From contig NZ_REFY01000001.1 in NCBI RefSeq assembly GCF_003841485.1, positions 434,001 to 498,000 on the forward strand: DNA of 64,000 nucleotides, given 5' to 3'. Shown here in pieces: positions 14,069 through 42,905 of the stretch. This stretch comes from Natrarchaeobius halalkaliphilus (GTDB lineage Archaea; Halobacteriota; Halobacteria; Halobacteriales; Natrialbaceae). Under the pieces are notes generated by a model. It saw nothing but the letters and a program-made list of their open reading frames with translations, was not told the DNA's origin and ran no database searches. Numbering within the stretch: the first letter of the stretch is position 1; each line of letters opens with the position of its first letter. A program made the translations under genes and the position numbers.

Positions 14069-14332
14069 TCGAAAGCCCTCCGCGCGTTCGCGGCCGCTCC
14101 GACGGATATCCTCACTCCGTTCGGACAGTGCCGCCGGAGCGACGCTCCCGGCTCACGGCTCCCGCTGGTCGCCGTTCGCCCGCGCGGCCCTCTCGAGGTT
14201 CGGGCCGCGCTCAGCGCGAACGCCCGTCGCCCTTTCAGTCCGCCAGGAACGGGAACCGCAGGCGGCCTCCGCGGGCCTGCCCTTCCCCGGGTCGCACGAC
14301 CCGCGCAGGGCGCGGGCACGCGCTCCCGGCCA
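14069..14332 (+). repeat. Long GC-rich dispersed repeat, copy A
   Basis: About 264 bases that match, base for base over long blocks, the reverse complement of 39725-39991. Conserved blocks include GCTCCGACGGATATCCTC, GCCGCCGGAGCGACGCTCC, CGCCCTTTCAGTCCGCCAGG and GGGTCGCACGACCCGCGC. Between blocks the copies differ by whole stem-loops: here a 9-bp stem (GCGCGGCCC/GGGCCGCGC) replaces a different hairpin in copy B. No convincing protein is encoded. The structure fits a non-coding RNA or a non-autonomous mobile repeat. Confidence 0.9.
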
Positions 14333-36060: not shown

Positions 36061-37854
36061 TTACCCCCTAGATTGGATGGTGTACAGTTCCGCGTACTCG
36101 CCTTCTTTATTAAGCAATTCGTCGTGGGTACCCGATTCGATAATCTCTCCGTCATCGACCGTGTGGATTCGATCGGCATTCTTCACCGTCGACAGCCGAT
36201 GGGCGATCGCGATGATCCCGTACTCACGATCCATCGCTTCGATCGCGGCCTGTACTTCACGCTCGAGGCTCGAGTCGAGGTCGCTCGTCGCTTCGTCGAG
36301 GACGAGGAAATCGGCATCTTTCAACAGTGCTCGCGCAAGTGCGACTCGCTGGCGCTGCCCGCCAGATAACCGCACACCGTCGTCACCTAACTGTGACTCG
36401 TAACCGTCCGGGAGTTCGTCCACAAACTCGTCGACCTTCGCGATCCTACAGACTCGTTCGATGTCCTCTCGTGTCGCATCTCGGTTTCCGATCGTGATAT
36501 TGTTCTCGAGCGTATCGTTGAAAATGAACGGTTGTTGACGGACGACTGCAATCGACTCACGCCACTCCTCGAGCGAATATTCTTCGATTGGGCAACTATT
36601 GGCCCGTATCTCCCCGCTGTCTGGACGATACATTTGTGCTAACAACGAAACGATAGTAGACTTTCCAGCCCCAGATTGTCCAACGAACGCGACGAGCTCG
36701 CCCTTCTCAACCTCGAAGGAAATCCCGTTGAGAATCGTTTCGTCATTATCGTACGAGAAGTGGACGTTGTCAAACGAGATGTGCTGGATATCCGGAACTG
36801 AGCGTTCGCCATCAGTCTCTTGGCGTTTTTCGAGCTGATCCAGGAACTTCTGAGTTCGGACGAGATGAGAGATATGGCCTTCAACCGAGTACAGACGGCT
36901 GTTCAACTTGCTGACCTGGGGAGCGAGTTGGAACATCGCAATGAGGAAGATACCGAGCTCGCCCAGCGAAAGCCCGGTAAAGACGAATCCGATGTAGATC
37001 AGGACGAATAGCGTGACGGCTGCAGATAATCGATAAAAGTTGTCGATGGCGGCTTCGTTGCGGGTGAGTTCGATCGATGACGTTGCATACTGTTCGACAG
37101 ATCCGAAAAAGTTAGAGAATACCTCGTCGGCCAGTCCAAAGAGCTTCACGTCCCGAATACCCTGCGTACCTGCTTGTACAGATTCTTGAACGCGTTCGTT
37201 CGCCTCCGCGACTCGTGTTCCGACAGTAACGGCCGGCTCGACGACGAATCGTAGCAGAATCGTAATTCCTCCGAGGAGGACAACCGCGAACACCGTCATC
37301 GACGGCGTAATGTACAACATTACTGCGAAGTACATCAAGATTAGAAAGAGCGTCTCCATGAGTTCGACTCCCTTTTGAATGACTTTTCCGGAATATCGGG
37401 TTTCGGTGATGATCGCGTTCAAAACGTCGTCGGATCCTTCCTCGTCGAAGTATCCAACCTCCGCACCCAGCGCGTGTTCGAACGCTCGAGCCCTGAGCGT
37501 CTGCTCATACCGGTAACTCAGAACGCCCTTGAGCCATGCCACAAGAAACGACATCGTGTACCGGAACGTCATCACGGCCGCGACCCCCAGGATCAGATAA
37601 CCGAGCGTGAAGGGAATACCAGCGAACTCGTAGAACGCGATGAAGGCGTCCATAACCGGTCCGTCGCTTGCAACCGGTTCTTCGGCCTGTGCAACTTCGA
37701 TAATCGGATAGATGAAGCCGAGGCCGACTCCCTCGAAGAACGCGACGAATCCGCCGAGGAGGACCAGGCCGAACGTAAGGAGTGGCCGATATCGAGCGAC
37801 TCGAGCCAGTGCGTTGGCCTTTTCGCGCCAGGTGAGATCTGCAGCGTCCGTCAT
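36061..37854 (-). CDS. ABC exporter (fused membrane and ATPase domains)
   Basis: A 597-residue half-transporter of the MsbA/lipid-flippase type. Six membrane helices lie in residues 20-320, then an ATPase domain with Walker A VAFVGQSGAGKST (about residue 390), Q-loop VVRQQPFIF, signature LSGGQRQRVALARAL, Walker B FLVLDEATSDLD and the H-loop AHRLST. It would act as a homodimer in the cytoplasmic membrane. In a glycan locus it probably flips or exports a lipid-linked oligosaccharide. A TATA-like TTTATGA about 30 bases upstream suggests a near-leaderless mRNA. Confidence 0.93.
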   Translation of the reverse strand: MTDAADLTWREKANALARVARYRPLLTFGLVLLGGFVAFFEGVGLGFIYPIIEVAQAEEPVASDGPVMDAFIAFYEFAGIPFTLGYLILGVAAVMTFRYTMSFLVAWLKGVLSYRYEQTLRARAFEHALGAEVGYFDEEGSDDVLNAIITETRYSGKVIQKGVELMETLFLILMYFAVMLYITPSMTVFAVVLLGGITILLRFVVEPAVTVGTRVAEANERVQESVQAGTQGIRDVKLFGLADEVFSNFFGSVEQYATSSIELTRNEAAIDNFYRLSAAVTLFVLIYIGFVFTGLSLGELGIFLIAMFQLAPQVSKLNSRLYSVEGHISHLVRTQKFLDQLEKRQETDGERSVPDIQHISFDNVHFSYDNDETILNGISFEVEKGELVAFVGQSGAGKSTIVSLLAQMYRPDSGEIRANSCPIEEYSLEEWRESIAVVRQQPFIFNDTLENNITIGNRDATREDIERVCRIAKVDEFVDELPDGYESQLGDDGVRLSGGQRQRVALARALLKDADFLVLDEATSDLDSSLEREVQAAIEAMDREYGIIAIAHRLSTVKNADRIHTVDDGEIIESGTHDELLNKEGEYAELYTIQSRG

Positions 37855-37986
37855 TCGGAATTATCTACGGTTCCGGTTCGCGGTTCATAAACATGCTGTT
37901 TCGCGTGATTGGACCAGCCGCTGCCGGTATGAACGGAGAACGATCGCTCACAAAGTATATGTCGCCCTGTCAGAACCATGTAGAAC

Positions 37987-38718
37987 ATGCAAGCAGTCGT
38001 TCTGGCAGCCGGAAAGGGCACCCGCCTCCGGCCGCTCACCGAAGACAAGCCGAAGGTCCTCGTGGAAGTCGACGGCAAACCCCTCGTCGAGGACGTCTTC
38101 GACAACCTGCTCGAGATCGGCGTCACGGAACTGATCGTCGTCGTGGGCTACCGGAAAGAACAGATCATCGAGCGCTACGGCGACGAGTACGAGGGCGTCC
38201 CGATAACCTACACGCACCAGCGCGAACAGCTGGGACTCGCACACGCCATCCTCCAGGCGGAGCCACACGTCGACGACGACTTCGTGCTCATGCTGGGCGA
38301 CAATATCTTCCGGGGCAACCTCGGGGACGTCGTCAACCGCCAGCGAGAAGACCGCGCCGACGCCGCCTTCCTCGTCGAGGAGGTTCCCATGGAGGAAGCC
38401 TCCCGGTACGGCGTCCTCGACACCAACGAGTACGGCGAGATCGTCGAGGTGATGGAAAAGCCCGACGACCCGCCGTCGAACCTGGTCATGACCGGCTTTT
38501 ACACGTTCACGCCGGCGATCTTCCACGCCTGCCATCTCGTGCAGCCGAGCGATCGCGGCGAGTACGAACTCCCGGACGCGATCGACCTGCTGATCCAGTC
38601 CGGGCGAACGATCGACGCCATCCGGATGGACGGCTGGCGCATCGATGTCGGCTACCCGGAGGATCGCGAGCGAGCCGCCGAGCGACTCGAGGAGAAAGCG
38701 CAAACGCCTGCCGAGTAG
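37987..38718 (+). CDS. aglF: Sugar-1-phosphate nucleotidyltransferase (AglF-like)
   Basis: A 243-residue NTP-transferase with LAAGKGTRLRPLTEDKPKVLVEV at the start, MLGDNIFRGN holding the catalytic Asp and EKPDDPPSNLVMTGFY. It resembles haloarchaeal AglF, which makes UDP-glucose for the N-glycosylation pathway; the substrate is assigned by similarity of organisation (AglM- and AglJ-like genes follow within 7 kb). A TATA-like AGTATATG at about 37953-37960 fits a leaderless start. It is divergent from the ABC exporter. Confidence 0.88.
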   Translation: MQAVVLAAGKGTRLRPLTEDKPKVLVEVDGKPLVEDVFDNLLEIGVTELIVVVGYRKEQIIERYGDEYEGVPITYTHQREQLGLAHAILQAEPHVDDDFVLMLGDNIFRGNLGDVVNRQREDRADAAFLVEEVPMEEASRYGVLDTNEYGEIVEVMEKPDDPPSNLVMTGFYTFTPAIFHACHLVQPSDRGEYELPDAIDLLIQSGRTIDAIRMDGWRIDVGYPEDRERAAERLEEKAQTPAE

Positions 38719-38862
38719 CACCCCATCAGTCCGACCCGACACCCGTCGTTACCTCTCTAACCTCGTGTTTCTGAGTTGCTCGATTGATAGCAGTGATGAA
38801 TGTGCAGGCTTCGAAAACGACCATACACAATCTCTATACCATTTCTACACATATGTATACAC

Positions 38863-39087
38863 ATGAGCACAGATAGACGATCGATCCCCGTCTCCATTCC
38901 GGAAGGGTTAGTCGAGGAGCTCGACGATCTCGTGGACGAAGGGCAGTTCGGGTCACGATCCGAAGCACTCCGATACGGTGCACGGCTGGTTACTCGCGAA
39001 GCACACCAGAAACGTCTCCACGAACGAGCAGCAGACGATGCCGAGCAGGACATCGAGGATCGGCTGGAGAGAAAGCGTGTCCGTTGA
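38863..39087 (+). CDS. Ribbon-helix-helix antitoxin-like protein
   Basis: A 74-residue RHH (CopG/VapB-type) DNA-binding protein: beta strand RSIPVSIPEGLVEELDDLV, then GSRSEALRYGARLVTREA. A TATA-like TCTATACC near 38833 is about 28 bases upstream, so the ATG is probably leaderless. A shortened PIN-like frame overlaps its 3' end, so it is an antitoxin whose toxin has been lost or truncated. Confidence 0.8.
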   Translation: MSTDRRSIPVSIPEGLVEELDDLVDEGQFGSRSEALRYGARLVTREAHQKRLHERAADDAEQDIEDRLERKRVR

Positions 39088-39235
39088 TACTGATGTCGTT
39101 CTCGCTATTTGGAACGTTGACGATCGATTCAGCTTAGCAGTCGATCTCGAGTCGATTTCAGACCCAAAAGCGGTGTGTCCTGTCGCTCAGCCCCAGTTTC
39201 TACCTCGAGTCCCCCTTGTCGAGAACGTCCGCTGA
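39078..39235 (+). pseudogene. Truncated VapC/PIN-like toxin remnant
   Basis: A GTG frame overlapping the end of the RHH gene encodes SVDTDVVLAIWNVDDRFS, which looks like the start of a PIN-domain toxin, then ends after 52 codons without the later acidic residues of the fold. The usual length is about 130. Probably a decayed toxin. Confidence 0.45.
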
Positions 39236-39409
39236 AACCTGACAGCCACAGGGTGTGGCGATGTGGGTCAGTGGCCCGGTACTCGAGACCATGGCGATCG
39301 GGGTATTACAGCGGGGACAGCGCGTTGGACCGGGAGGGTCGGCGTCTCCGGTACCGGACGTGGTGTCCGACGATACTCTGTCGGTCATCGGCTCCTCTTG
39401 GGGTTCCAT
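39200..39409 (-). CDS. Small zinc-ribbon-like haloarchaeal protein
   Basis: A 69-residue protein with CPRCNTPIAMV and a second pair in ATPCGCQVSADVL, a four-Cys ribbon. Such small CPxCG-related zinc-finger proteins are widespread in haloarchaea and mostly uncharacterised. The start may instead be Met8 (39388). It is the first gene downstream, on the minus strand, of the structured element at 39488-39598, which could form its 5' leader. Confidence 0.7.
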   Translation of the reverse strand: MEPQEEPMTDRVSSDTTSGTGDADPPGPTRCPRCNTPIAMVSSTGPLTHIATPCGCQVSADVLDKGDSR

Positions 39410-39461
39410 AGCGAAGGCTCCTCGAGCGCAAATCGTGTTTGTTGGCGGTTCGGCGGTCGTG

Positions 39462-39479
39462 CGAGACGTTTATGTCTCG
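39462..39479. promoter_or_regulatory. Inverted repeat with embedded TATA-like core
   Basis: CGAGAC-GTTTAT-GTCTCG, a perfect 6-bp inverted repeat around a TATA-like hexamer. It may be an operator over a plus-strand promoter, or a terminator-like hairpin in a minus-strand transcript. Confidence 0.4.
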
Positions 39480-39487
39480 TGGGGGGT

Positions 39488-39598
39488 AAGTTGAACATGG
39501 CCTCGTAACGAGGTCGACTTGGAAGCCAGCCTCGGGTGCCTCTAACACCCGGGGCATTTCCGTACATGCCCCCTGTACCTGTTGGAGTACTGACTTCC
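39488..39598 (+). ncRNA. Candidate structured RNA with four stems
   Basis: Helices by eye: AAGTTGA (39488-39494) with TCGACTT (39514-39520) enclosing CCTCG-TAA-CGAGG; GGAAGCCAG (39521-39529) with CTGACTTCC (39590-39598) closing a junction; GCCTCGGGTG (39529-39538) with CACCCGGGGC (39546-39555) across a 7-base loop; GTACA (39562-39566) with TGTAC (39574-39578). Two wobble pairs favour the plus strand and one favours the minus strand. A strong minus-strand TATA (GATATAAG, about 39623-39630) would start a transcript near 39600, exactly at the end of the closing stem. No known family recognised. Confidence 0.45.
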
Positions 39599-39724
39599 AT
39601 CACTATGTTCGACTGTGTGTGACTTATATCTACTGGAAATCGAGTGAATATTGGTCAGGACTCGTCCAGTGAATCGGTTACGAGACACGCGTACCATCCT
39701 GTAAAACGGTAACCGAGAATGACG

Positions 39725-39991
39725 TGGCCGAGAGCACGTGCCCGCGCCGTAGCGCGGGTCGTGCGACCCGGGGAAGGGCAGGCGCGCGGAGGCCGTTGCG
39801 GTGTCCGTTCCTGGCGGACTGAAAGGGCGAGCCGTTCTCGCGCCGGGCGAACGGCGACCCGCGGGAGCCGTGAGCGCGGAGCGTCGCTCCGGCGGCCCTG
39901 TCCGAGCGCCGCGCGGTTCGAACGGGAGTGAGAACCGCGGCAAGCGAGGATATCCGTCGGAGCGACCGCGAGGACGGCGAGGGCTTTCGAA
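39725..39991 (-). repeat. Long GC-rich dispersed repeat, copy B (inverted relative to copy A)
   Basis: The minus strand matches copy A (14069-14332) through all conserved blocks. Here the GCCGCGGTTC...GAACCGCG hairpin is an extra insertion relative to A, while A's 9-bp stem is replaced by a GGCGCGAG...CTCGCC hairpin. Loop and arm changes keep pairing, for example CCCGCGC-tacg-GCGCGGG here against CCCGCGC-agg-GCGCGGG in A. Confidence 0.9.
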
Positions 39992-40176
39992 GCGTCACGC
40001 ACGACTCGAGAATTCGTTCCGAACCCATCCTCACCATTGGTGGTGGCCCGGTGTGTTCTACCCAATCCACACCACACAATCCCACCACCGCACATAGCCA
40101 CACTCCAAAAAAACCCACCACACCCACACCAACGACCCAAACACTCATACACAGACCAGTCCAACACCTGTCACGT
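39992..40176. repeat. Strand-skewed CA-rich tract beside copy B
   Basis: From about 40060 to 40170 the plus strand is almost only C and A. On the minus strand this is a GT-rich tract directly upstream of the long repeat, the same arrangement as the GT-rich array before copy A. It also forms the 5' region of the membrane protein gene at 40177. Confidence 0.6.
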
Positions 40177-41058
40177 ATGTCGCCCTCCACGATATCGGAT
40201 CGCCTCCGCGCGTCCCCCGCGGACGGTATCCTCGGCGTCGCGATCGAGCCCCGGACGTACAAGAACCTGTGTTACCTACTGCTGGCGATACCCCTCGGGT
40301 TCGCGTACGGGTTCATCCTCCTGTTCGGGTTCCTCTTCGGCGCGATCCTCTCGCTGTTCGGTATCGGCCTCGTGATCCTGCTCGCGGTCCTCGTCAGCGC
40401 TCGAGTCCTGGCGGGCTTCGAACGCGTCCTCGCGAACGCGCTGTTGGATCTCGAGTTGGAGCGTCCGGAAGACACGCGCACGGGGTCGTCCGGACTCTGG
40501 GGAACGTTCAAGCGCTATCTCGAGGCGGCCTCGACCTGGCGGGGCGTGGGCTTTCTCGTGTTGAAGTCCTGGCTGGCCGTGGTGGCGTTCGTCCTCCTGA
40601 TCGTGTTCGCGACGCTCGTCTCGCTGGTGTCGTCGCCGCTTCGCTACCCCCACGAGGTCGAGTTCGTCACGGTCAACGACGAGCCGATCGCCTGGGCGAT
40701 CGGGACGCTCCCGGAGGCGGCCCTCGCCGCGTTCCTCGGACTCGTCGGCCTCGTTCTCTTCGCCCACGTCTCGAACGCGGTGGCGTACGTCGCCGGCCGG
40801 ATGGCGCTCGCCATGCTCGACGGATCGGCGTCGACCGACGAGGCGGAGCCACCCACCGAACCCGAGTCATCCGACGGATCGAATGCGGCCACCGAACCCG
40901 AGTCGCTCGAGGGGAGGGATGAACCCGAGAACGCGGACCCACTCGAGAACCCGAACGCACCCGAAAACCCGGACTCGTCCGAGGGGTCGAATGCGCTCGA
41001 TGACTCGAGTGCACCCGAGGATTCCGACCCGTCCGAGGATCCCTCGAGTCGGCCGTGA
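40177..41058 (+). CDS. Sensor-domain membrane protein with acidic tail
   Basis: A 293-residue protein. Four hydrophobic segments (two near residues 30-70, LLAIPLGFAYGFILLFGFLFG and following, then two near 125-150 and 185-210) and the short extracellular loop fit the putative sensor domain of the PF13796 type seen in haloarchaeal proteins. The C-terminal ~75 residues are a low-complexity Glu/Ser/Asp/Pro tail. The final 14 codons and stop are identical to those of the RHH gene at 41143. No kinase domain follows. Role unknown. Confidence 0.75.
   Translation: MSPSTISDRLRASPADGILGVAIEPRTYKNLCYLLLAIPLGFAYGFILLFGFLFGAILSLFGIGLVILLAVLVSARVLAGFERVLANALLDLELERPEDTRTGSSGLWGTFKRYLEAASTWRGVGFLVLKSWLAVVAFVLLIVFATLVSLVSSPLRYPHEVEFVTVNDEPIAWAIGTLPEAALAAFLGLVGLVLFAHVSNAVAYVAGRMALAMLDGSASTDEAEPPTEPESSDGSNAATEPESLEGRDEPENADPLENPNAPENPDSSEGSNALDDSSAPEDSDPSEDPSSRP
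41014..41058 (+). repeat. 45-bp shared 3' end, copy 1
   Basis: Identical to 41395-41439, including the stop codon. It encodes the tail PEDSDPSEDPSSRP in the same frame in both genes. Confidence 0.9.
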
Positions 41059-41142
41059 CGCGAGAGGGGGTGGAACAACCGCGAGTCAGGTGACGATCAC
41101 GTCTCGCGTGGACGAACGGTTATACCACGCGGCCTGTAACAC

Positions 41143-41439
41143 GTGCGTATGTCGAGTGGGGATACACAAAACGGGGACGACCCGGAGAAGACGAACATCA
41201 ACATTCGATTGACCGAGACGTTTCTCGAGGATATCGACGCGACGTGGGCTGAAGAAGGATACAACAGCCGGAGCGAGTTCATCCGCGAAGCGCTCCGCGA
41301 TGCCGTCCGGCATCCTGGACTGACCCGCAAGAGTTGGAAGGAGATCGCGGCCGTCGAACATGCCCGTCGGACAGGAGAGAGCGACGCGTTCGCCCCCGAG
41401 GATTCCGACCCGTCCGAGGATCCCTCGAGTCGGCCGTGA
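41143..41439 (+). CDS. Ribbon-helix-helix protein with shared acidic tail
   Basis: A 98-residue RHH regulator (NINIRLTETFLEDIDATWAEEGYNSRSEFIREALRDAV, residues about 17-54), with a basic/helical middle (LTRKSWKEIAAVEHARR). Its last 14 residues repeat the tail of the upstream membrane protein exactly. The PIN-type remnant at 42963 is too far away to be its partner with confidence. It may regulate the neighbouring glycan genes. Confidence 0.75.
   Translation: MRMSSGDTQNGDDPEKTNINIRLTETFLEDIDATWAEEGYNSRSEFIREALRDAVRHPGLTRKSWKEIAAVEHARRTGESDAFAPEDSDPSEDPSSRP
41395..41439 (+). repeat. 45-bp shared 3' end, copy 2
   Basis: Direct repeat of 41014-41058, 381 bases away. The two host genes are otherwise unrelated. 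Confidence 0.9.
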
Positions 41440-41510
41440 ACCCGACCCGCTCGAGTCAGGCCCGACGCGAACCCAAAAACGACTAACGCTCGCCCCTCGT
41501 TTGACGCGCT

Positions 41511-42905
41511 ATGTACGTCTCCATCGTCGGCAGCGGCTACGTCGGGACGACCGTCGCCGCCTGTCTCGCGGACCTGGGCCACGACGTCGTCAACGTCGAG
41601 ATCGACGAGGGCATCGTCGAGACGATCAACGCGGGCGAGGCACCCATCCACGAGGAGGGACTCGCGGAGCGCATCGAGGAACACGCCGGAACGTCTCTCA
41701 GGGCGACGACGGAGTACGCGGACGTTCGCGAGACGGACGTTACGTTCCTCTGTCTCCCGACGCCCCAGGCCGACGACGGCAGCCTCGAGCTCGCGCCCAT
41801 GCGCGCCGGCACGGAGATGCTGGGCGAGGCCCTCGCCCCGAAACTCGAGGCGGGCGACGACCACCTCGTCGTCGTCAAGAGCACCGTCCTTCCGGGGACC
41901 ACGGAGGACGTCGTCGGGCCGATCCTCGAGGAGACCGCCGATACGACGATCGGAACGGGCGTCGAACTCGCGATGAACCCGGAGTTCCTCCGGATGGGGA
42001 CCGCAGTCGAGGACTTCCTCGAGCCGGACAAGGTCGTGATCGGCGCGACGAGCGAGGACGCCGCCGCGACGCTCCGGGAGCTGTACGCGCCGATCCTCGG
42101 AGCCGCGACCGCCGCGGGCTCGAGCGGCGACGAACCGAACGCGTCCGACAACTCGAGCGGCGACGACTCGACCGCCGCGGGCTCGAACGCGTCCGATCCG
42201 CCGGATCTCGTCGAGACCGGCGTTCGCGAGGCCGAGCTCATCAAGTACGCGAACAACGCCTTTCTCGCCGCGAAGGTGTCGCTGGTCAACGAGCTCGGCA
42301 ACGTGGCCAAGGCCTACGGCGCGGACGCCTACGAGGTGCTCGCGGCCGTCGGCCTCGACGACCGGATCGCAGAGCGGTTCATGCGCTCGGGACTGGGCTG
42401 GGGCGGCTCGTGTTTCCCGAAGGACGTCGACGCGCTGCGAGCGGGCGCGCGAGAGCAGGGCTACGAGCCCGCACTGTTAGACGCCGCCGTCGCCGTCAAC
42501 GACGCCCAGCCGCGCCGGCTCGTCTCCGTACTCGAGGAGCACGTCGATCTCGAGGGCGCACGGGTCGCGGTGCTCGGACTCTCGTTCAAGCCGGGGACCG
42601 ACGACGTGCGAAAGTCCCGCGCGCTGGACGTCATCGACGCGCTCCTCGAGCGAGGCGCACGCCCCGTCGCCTACGATCCCGTCGCGATGGAGAACGTCCG
42701 GAGCGCCCATCCCGACCTCCCGGTCGAGTACGCCGACTCGGCCGCGGACGCACTCGAGGGAGCCGAGGGTGCCGTCGTCGCCACCGACTGGCCCGAGTTC
42801 GACGACCTCTCTGTTGCGGGGATGGCCCGGCGCGTCCTCGTCGACGGCCGACGGATCGACGTCGACCGAGGCGAACTCGAGGTGTACGAAGGACTGACGT
42901 GGTGA
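41511..42905 (+). CDS. aglM: UDP-sugar 6-dehydrogenase (AglM-like)
   Basis: A 464-residue UDP-glucose/GDP-mannose dehydrogenase family enzyme that oxidises an NDP-hexose to the uronate, here likely UDP-glucuronate for N-glycans. It has SIVGSGYVGTTVAACLADLGHDV, VKSTVLPGTT, AMNPEFLRMG, the central ELIKYANNAFLAAKVSLVNE and the active site GLGWGGSCFPKDV with the catalytic Cys. A low-complexity insert of about 30 residues (SSGDEPNASDNSSGDDSTAA) separates the N-terminal and central domains, unusual for the family. The length is otherwise normal. Confidence 0.94.
   Translation: MYVSIVGSGYVGTTVAACLADLGHDVVNVEIDEGIVETINAGEAPIHEEGLAERIEEHAGTSLRATTEYADVRETDVTFLCLPTPQADDGSLELAPMRAGTEMLGEALAPKLEAGDDHLVVVKSTVLPGTTEDVVGPILEETADTTIGTGVELAMNPEFLRMGTAVEDFLEPDKVVIGATSEDAAATLRELYAPILGAATAAGSSGDEPNASDNSSGDDSTAAGSNASDPPDLVETGVREAELIKYANNAFLAAKVSLVNELGNVAKAYGADAYEVLAAVGLDDRIAERFMRSGLGWGGSCFPKDVDALRAGAREQGYEPALLDAAVAVNDAQPRRLVSVLEEHVDLEGARVAVLGLSFKPGTDDVRKSRALDVIDALLERGARPVAYDPVAMENVRSAHPDLPVEYADSAADALEGAEGAVVATDWPEFDDLSVAGMARRVLVDGRRIDVDRGELEVYEGLTW

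Follow-up and report, generated by a model that had tools for sequence, protein, structure and literature searches.

A dispersed, structured RNA element at small zinc-ribbon genes of haloarchaea and its possible control by antisense RNA

A structured element beside a zinc-ribbon gene

The window, a stretch of 64,000 nucleotides of Natrarchaeobius halalkaliphilus DNA, carries at 39462–39600 a compact element that adjoins a small zinc-ribbon protein gene on the minus strand (Table 1). A preliminary description had proposed a structured RNA here, with four helices within 111 bases. Folding and comparison agree with this: folded alone, the plus strand reaches −59.9 kcal/mol (z −3.66, with 0 of 200 shuffles as good) and the minus strand −54.9 kcal/mol (z −3.68, with 1 of 200 as good), and the pairings are kept among aligned copies. 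The four helices lie where they had been placed, but the extent of the structure was understated, because the 5′ hairpin H0 and a palindrome at the left edge belong to it too. The H0 pairing is real, since native halves fold about 4 kcal/mol better than halves swapped between copies (p 2e-51). The arms of the palindrome covary (column 30–43 is A-T in 89 cases and G-C in 58), and the small hairpin S2 has 76% of its cells paired, with two-sided changes at all four pairs.

Table 1. Positions of genes, predicted signals and RNA helices at the locus
Feature	Position	Strand	Remarks
Small zinc-ribbon protein gene (MTDRVSS...CPRCN...PCGC)	39200–39388	−	
Short leader ORF (MFNLPPTRHKRLARPPNRQQTRFALEEPSLWNPKRSR)	39385–39498	−	AUG at the RNA border
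Palindrome CGAGAC-GTTTAT-GTCTCG	39462–39479		Surrounds the plus-strand TATA box; doubles as leader-ORF codons
Predicted antisense-RNA TATA box (TTTATG)	39469–39474	+	27 nt before CATGG
Predicted antisense RNA	39497–39600	+	Start near 39497; TATA spacing, and plus wobble in H0, H1 base and outer P1
H0 hairpin	39497–39528	+	Competes with P1 for 39520–39528; inner stem and loop hypervariable
Structured 5′ leader core: P1 (9 bp on minus), hairpin 1, P2	39520–39600	−	Inner P1 wobble and fold of the alignment
Shared strand b (TGGAAGCCA)	39520–39528		Three alternative partners: H0 5′ arm, nearly invariant UUUC (39557–39560), P1 3′ arm
Hairpin 1, long form (GCCTCGGGTG / CACCCGGGGC)	39529–39555	+	99.7% of cells paired
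Hairpin-1 loop (CCTCTAA in the window copy)	39539–39545		Hypervariable
P2 hairpin GGGGCAT/ATGCCCC	39551–39573		Exclusive with hairpin-1 base
Small alternative hairpin S2 (GTACA/TGTAC)	39562–39578	+	Present in only part of the family
P1 partner arm (TGACTTCCA)	39591–39599		99% of P1 cells paired
Predicted TATA promoter (CCAGTAGATATAAGT on minus) of the leader-ORF–zinc-ribbon mRNA	39622–39636	−	

A dispersed RNA family

A DNA search of relatives revealed that the element region recurs many times per genome. A covariance search, proposed in the preliminary description as a check, found the structure conserved: a model of the 80-position core recovers 1–30 copies in 75 of 125 Natrialbaceae genomes. 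This model had zero matches in a first class-wide sample beyond Natrialbaceae, and a second model detects weaker, divergent relatives in other haloarchaeal families, the richest genome having 13 copies. In GTDB species genomes, a DNA pattern matched at least 120 stretches; among the 80 matches listed, all are from Natrialbaceae save one Eisenbacteria record. Eighteen plasmid records, all from Natrialbaceae, match the element, and a viral or phage origin was rejected, with 0 viral contigs and 0 phage records carrying it. The subject is therefore larger than first described: the window copy is one member of a multi-copy, dispersed RNA family.

Neither an Rfam 15 cmscan of the window nor a permissive run on 37000–42000 matched the element, with nothing above the gathering threshold, and we found no earlier description of it in the open-licence literature. 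The zinc-ribbon proteins match no Pfam or NCBIfam family above cut-off, and a PDB profile search with them gave only weak, generic zinc-finger matches. The element would be a large archaeal structured-RNA family that is absent from Rfam and linked to small zinc proteins for which no curated family name exists.

Weaker, partly decayed-looking copies occur elsewhere in the window's own genome (G000; C8:59585-59652, C2:136762-136848, C1:687532-687600 and C2:582078-582158). In a genome of another family (G043), the loci L326 and L347 hold a degenerate element, missed by the models, with a palindrome remnant, a CTTTTATCTAC motif and a zinc-ribbon gene.

A short ORF coupled to the zinc-ribbon gene

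Of 227 distinct copies, 185 have a minus-strand zinc-ribbon motif to the left of the element, compared with 2 at each of three control positions. Over 37 genomes, the counts of RNAs and zinc proteins rise together (rho 0.89) and their presence agrees (Fisher p 1.4e-4), shared ancestry being uncorrected in both figures. The protein types vary (CPRCG...PCGC; CYRCD...CCxDC; a HalOD1-like N-terminal part plus zinc ribbon) while the RNA stays. The fused form, with its N-terminal HalOD1-like part, occurs at L118–L127 (genome G071), and HalOD1-like genes also adjoin other copies (L077 and L172).

The preliminary description missed a short ORF between the leader and the zinc gene, which ends in an ATGA overlap with the latter. 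The conserved CATGG reads CC-ATG on the minus strand, and the ORF that opens at this ATG is mostly 26–50 codons long. Among 213 copies, its codons 2–25 are nearly free of stops (0.0009 and 0.0 per codon, versus 0.013–0.07 in other frames, an imperfect comparison in that one other frame contains the fixed TAA of the palindrome), and over codons 0–13 third positions are 2.3 times more variable than first or second positions. Where the ORF ends is the stronger argument for coding: of 177 non-redundant copies, 119 join its stop to the zinc start in an ATGA overlap and 161 have the stop no more than 12 nt from that start, a pattern that control frames do not show. The earlier proposal that the element is, on the minus strand, the leader of a zinc-ribbon gene is supported by both the frequency of the adjacent gene and this coupling. 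Small ORFs also begin at this border AUG in other families, and several of them carry zinc-finger motifs. The predicted peptide (consensus M[IF]xx[IL]LP[RG][YH]K[RG][LP]AR) is basic and, judged by eye, not a membrane helix. Coding on the plus strand from the conserved AUG was rejected, as the frame is not kept and the stop bias is absent.

Almost every Natrialbaceae copy encodes the lysine of codon 9 as AAA. Two unrelated ORFs from other families (L355 and L361) have Leu-Lys (CTTAAG) at codons 8–9, inside palindromic arms of different sequence; codons 8–9 look fixed as if by a box on the opposite strand.

No zinc gene was detected at 39 of 221 copies, although the RNA persists there, in most cases with both TATA boxes; the RNA may therefore have a role of its own. 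Solitary RNAs of this kind, with no recognisable zinc gene and both boxes retained, are L158 and L160–L166 in genome G026, and L071, L100, L102 and L109. At the solitary copies in G026, about 280 bp to the left is also conserved and is non-coding in appearance; some flanks read N.

Mutually exclusive folds

The preliminary description had noted a switch-like choice of partners for GGGGC (39551–39555), and this choice proves to be conserved. The segment pairs either with GCCTC at the base of hairpin 1 or with GCCCC in P2: column 39 forms a valid pair with column 14 in 219 of 221 copies and with column 56 in 213 of 221. The three columns covary (T-G-C 151, C-G-C 31, T-A-T 23), and because they change jointly, both pairings are maintained. 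Over 99 aligned copies, the two alternative folds have 95.1% and 96.2% of cells paired, compared with 35–57% in slid controls, in tests whose shuffles treat the copies as unrelated, with kinship uncorrected.

Predicted promoters and strand-specific pairing

The TATA box that had been noted at the border on the minus strand is a conserved feature: in 190 of 221 copies the distance between motif and structure is 21–27 nt, and in genus g3 it is kept upstream of zinc genes even though these loci have no recognisable RNA. Given this fixed spacing and the retention in g3, the simplest view is that transcription of the zinc unit begins at the right-hand promoter and runs through the RNA. At the other edge of the structure, 221 of 227 copies have a TATA-like box on the plus strand at a distance of 26–28 nt from CATGG, so that a convergent antisense RNA would start opposite the leader AUG. 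This box overlaps codons and the palindrome, and part of its conservation could therefore be due to coding or to mRNA structure; no terminator of the plus-strand RNA was found. The in-frame ORF that crosses the palindrome and the promoter retention in g3 both weaken the case for the palindrome as a bidirectional promoter of the zinc gene.

Wobble pairs discriminate between the strands, because wherever one strand forms G-U the complementary strand has an A-C mismatch. After similar copies had been collapsed into 98 clusters, the ratio of plus to minus wobbles was 33:5 in outer H0, 46:2 in outer P1 and 144:1 at the hairpin-1 (H1) base, versus 1:49 in inner P1. The opposite direction in different helices argues against mutation bias, and the counts indicate selection on both strands. 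The plus-strand preference that had been read from two wobble pairs is supported: H0, the H1 base and outer P1 favour the plus strand, and inner P1 favours the minus strand. The strand clues had been seen as conflicting; over 227 copies both look right, because each strand has its promoter spacing and its strand-specific wobble.

A structured leader before a gene, combined with exclusive folds, is what would be expected of a riboswitch, and the element has both. It might accordingly act on the minus strand only, with P1, P2 and hairpin 1 as a sensor, H0 hiding the AUG, a metal or metabolite shifting the balance and no antisense RNA involved. Its place directly before the AUG in several families and the wobble of inner P1 fit such a leader as well as the folds do, but H0, the H1 base and outer P1 gather plus-strand G-U pairs that are A-C mismatches on the minus strand, hypervariable loops (below) are unusual for a ligand pocket, and there is no Rfam riboswitch match. 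We consider this reading unlikely, as the wobble of most helices favours the plus strand. Metal sensing by the element is possible; the link to metals that the preliminary description drew from the downstream zinc-ribbon gene found no echo, as nothing in the comparative analysis points to it.

Hypervariable loops

Two hypervariable loops, like the solitary copies, had escaped the preliminary description. In five groups of paralogues, each from a single genome, identity is 38–63% in the hairpin-1 loop, compared with 90–100% in the promoter and 5′ core and 64–87% at third codon positions of the zinc gene. Hairpin-1 loops are also close to random between copies whose flanks have 95% identity or more: one of 15 such pairs shares its loop, and mean loop identity is about 0.6, versus 0.47 for random loops and 0.98 for control windows. 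In another family, two copies with 99.6% identical flanks have entirely different loops. Loop composition is constrained, being pyrimidine-rich on the 5′ side and purine-rich on the 3′ side. Within genomes, loops are not over-dispersed and differ no more than by chance; no signal was found for kissing between the H0 and hairpin-1 loops, and no partners of the loops were found in the RNA or the flanking genes.

Identical hairpin-1 loops recur in unrelated genomes. This would suit a family of trans-acting small RNAs from the plus strand, in which variable loops serve as seeds for different mRNAs and the zinc-ribbon protein is a partner or merely linked. The plus-strand wobble, the promoter spacing and the copies with no zinc gene are in keeping with such a family, but it leaves unexplained the ATGA-coupled border ORF and the minus-strand wobble in P1, both of which contradict a small RNA of the plus strand only, and complements of the loops are not enriched in flanking genes, the regions covered by that search. 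We regard it as rather improbable.

Equally, the family could be a dispersing repeat cassette whose loops vary through easy mutation or replacement, without any role for the variation. Copies have blocks of about 0.4–0.5 kb in common and mostly unrelated flanks, whole loops have been replaced between otherwise near-identical copies, and over-dispersion within genomes is absent, all of which speaks for a cassette; no terminal inverted repeats or target-site duplications were seen by eye at the block ends of the five paralogue groups. Against idle variation stands the constrained composition of the loops. Moreover, the cassette is under function, since its coding, its promoter spacing and its exclusive pairings have all been preserved. 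We give this account little credence; it is compatible with antisense control, and excludes only a role of the loops.

A possible antisense switch at the leader

What comparison of the copies establishes, at the level of sequence, is an element with strand-specific pairing in both directions, alternative folds, an ATGA-coupled ORF, two TATA-like boxes at fixed spacing and hypervariable loops. The explanation that we prefer, and to which we give an even chance, is that the element forms the structured 5′ leader of an mRNA from the minus strand, in which the ORF for the peptide would end in a stop overlapping the start of the zinc-ribbon gene, and that a convergent plus-strand antisense RNA overlaps this leader, starting opposite its AUG. 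Both strands would be transcribed, and the H0 and hairpin-1 loops would be where the antisense RNA meets the leader of its own copy. Access to the AUG would then be altered, either because the antisense RNA covers it or because the choice between H0 and P1 is shifted, and the divergence of the loops would give each of many copies a separate specificity, or ‘address’. Such an arrangement, with the loops as contacts between leader and antisense RNA, would account at once for the pair of promoters, wobble that points both ways, ORF coupling and divergent loops. More tentatively, haloarchaea may run a large chromosomal set of sense/antisense RNAs, in which loops diversified copy by copy, faster than neutral sites, into separately addressed switches of small zinc proteins.

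Comparison with known systems

CopA and CopT are a plasmid antisense control pair. As in that pair, the proposed partners would be complementary structured RNAs whose loops make the first contact, whereas the element is chromosomal, lies mostly on main replicons in up to 30 copies per genome and has no replication gene. Antisense control also makes use of YUNR loops (PMC4485353), and the loops of the element have no clear YUNR motif. Translational riboswitches resemble it in their leader just before the AUG and their mutually exclusive helices, and differ from it in its hypervariable loops and the strand-specific wobble on the opposite strand.

A further parallel is Ibs/Sib, a type I toxin–antitoxin system of Escherichia coli made up of multi-copy chromosomal repeats, in which an antisense RNA lies over the translation start of a small ORF and two recognition domains matter for pairing (PMC4147584). 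The element is likewise multi-copy, with a small ORF, a convergent TATA box at fitting spacing, two loops and a predicted antisense transcript. It differs in being archaeal, in its strongly structured leader with exclusive folds and in the zinc-ribbon gene that follows the small ORF. Systems of this type are marked by a short, hydrophobic, toxic peptide and an antisense RNA that represses its ORF; we do not claim membership of the type I toxin–antitoxin systems, because the predicted peptide here is basic rather than hydrophobic. By analogy, antisense control in cis may work as it does in Ibs/Sib, and archaea may have in this element a counterpart to the antisense-RNA switches of bacteria.

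Among proteins, the nearest likeness is to Brz, a haloarchaeal small protein with a CPxCG zinc finger that regulates bop transcription (PMC2253796); the zinc-ribbon proteins at the element are also tiny, single-domain zinc-finger proteins. No RNA element accompanying Brz-type small proteins turned up in the literature searched. The element offers a handle on the role of haloarchaeal small zinc-finger proteins. If the antisense reading holds, it would also provide a collection of naturally occurring RNA pairs, near-identical except mainly in two loops, with which RNA–RNA specificity and its evolution could be tested by loop swaps.

A second intergenic repeat, GC-rich and strongly folding, adjoins the element at 39716–40010 in the window. 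A 78% copy of it lies elsewhere in the window (14069–14332), and others occur in genomes of several families, with up to 13 matches in one.
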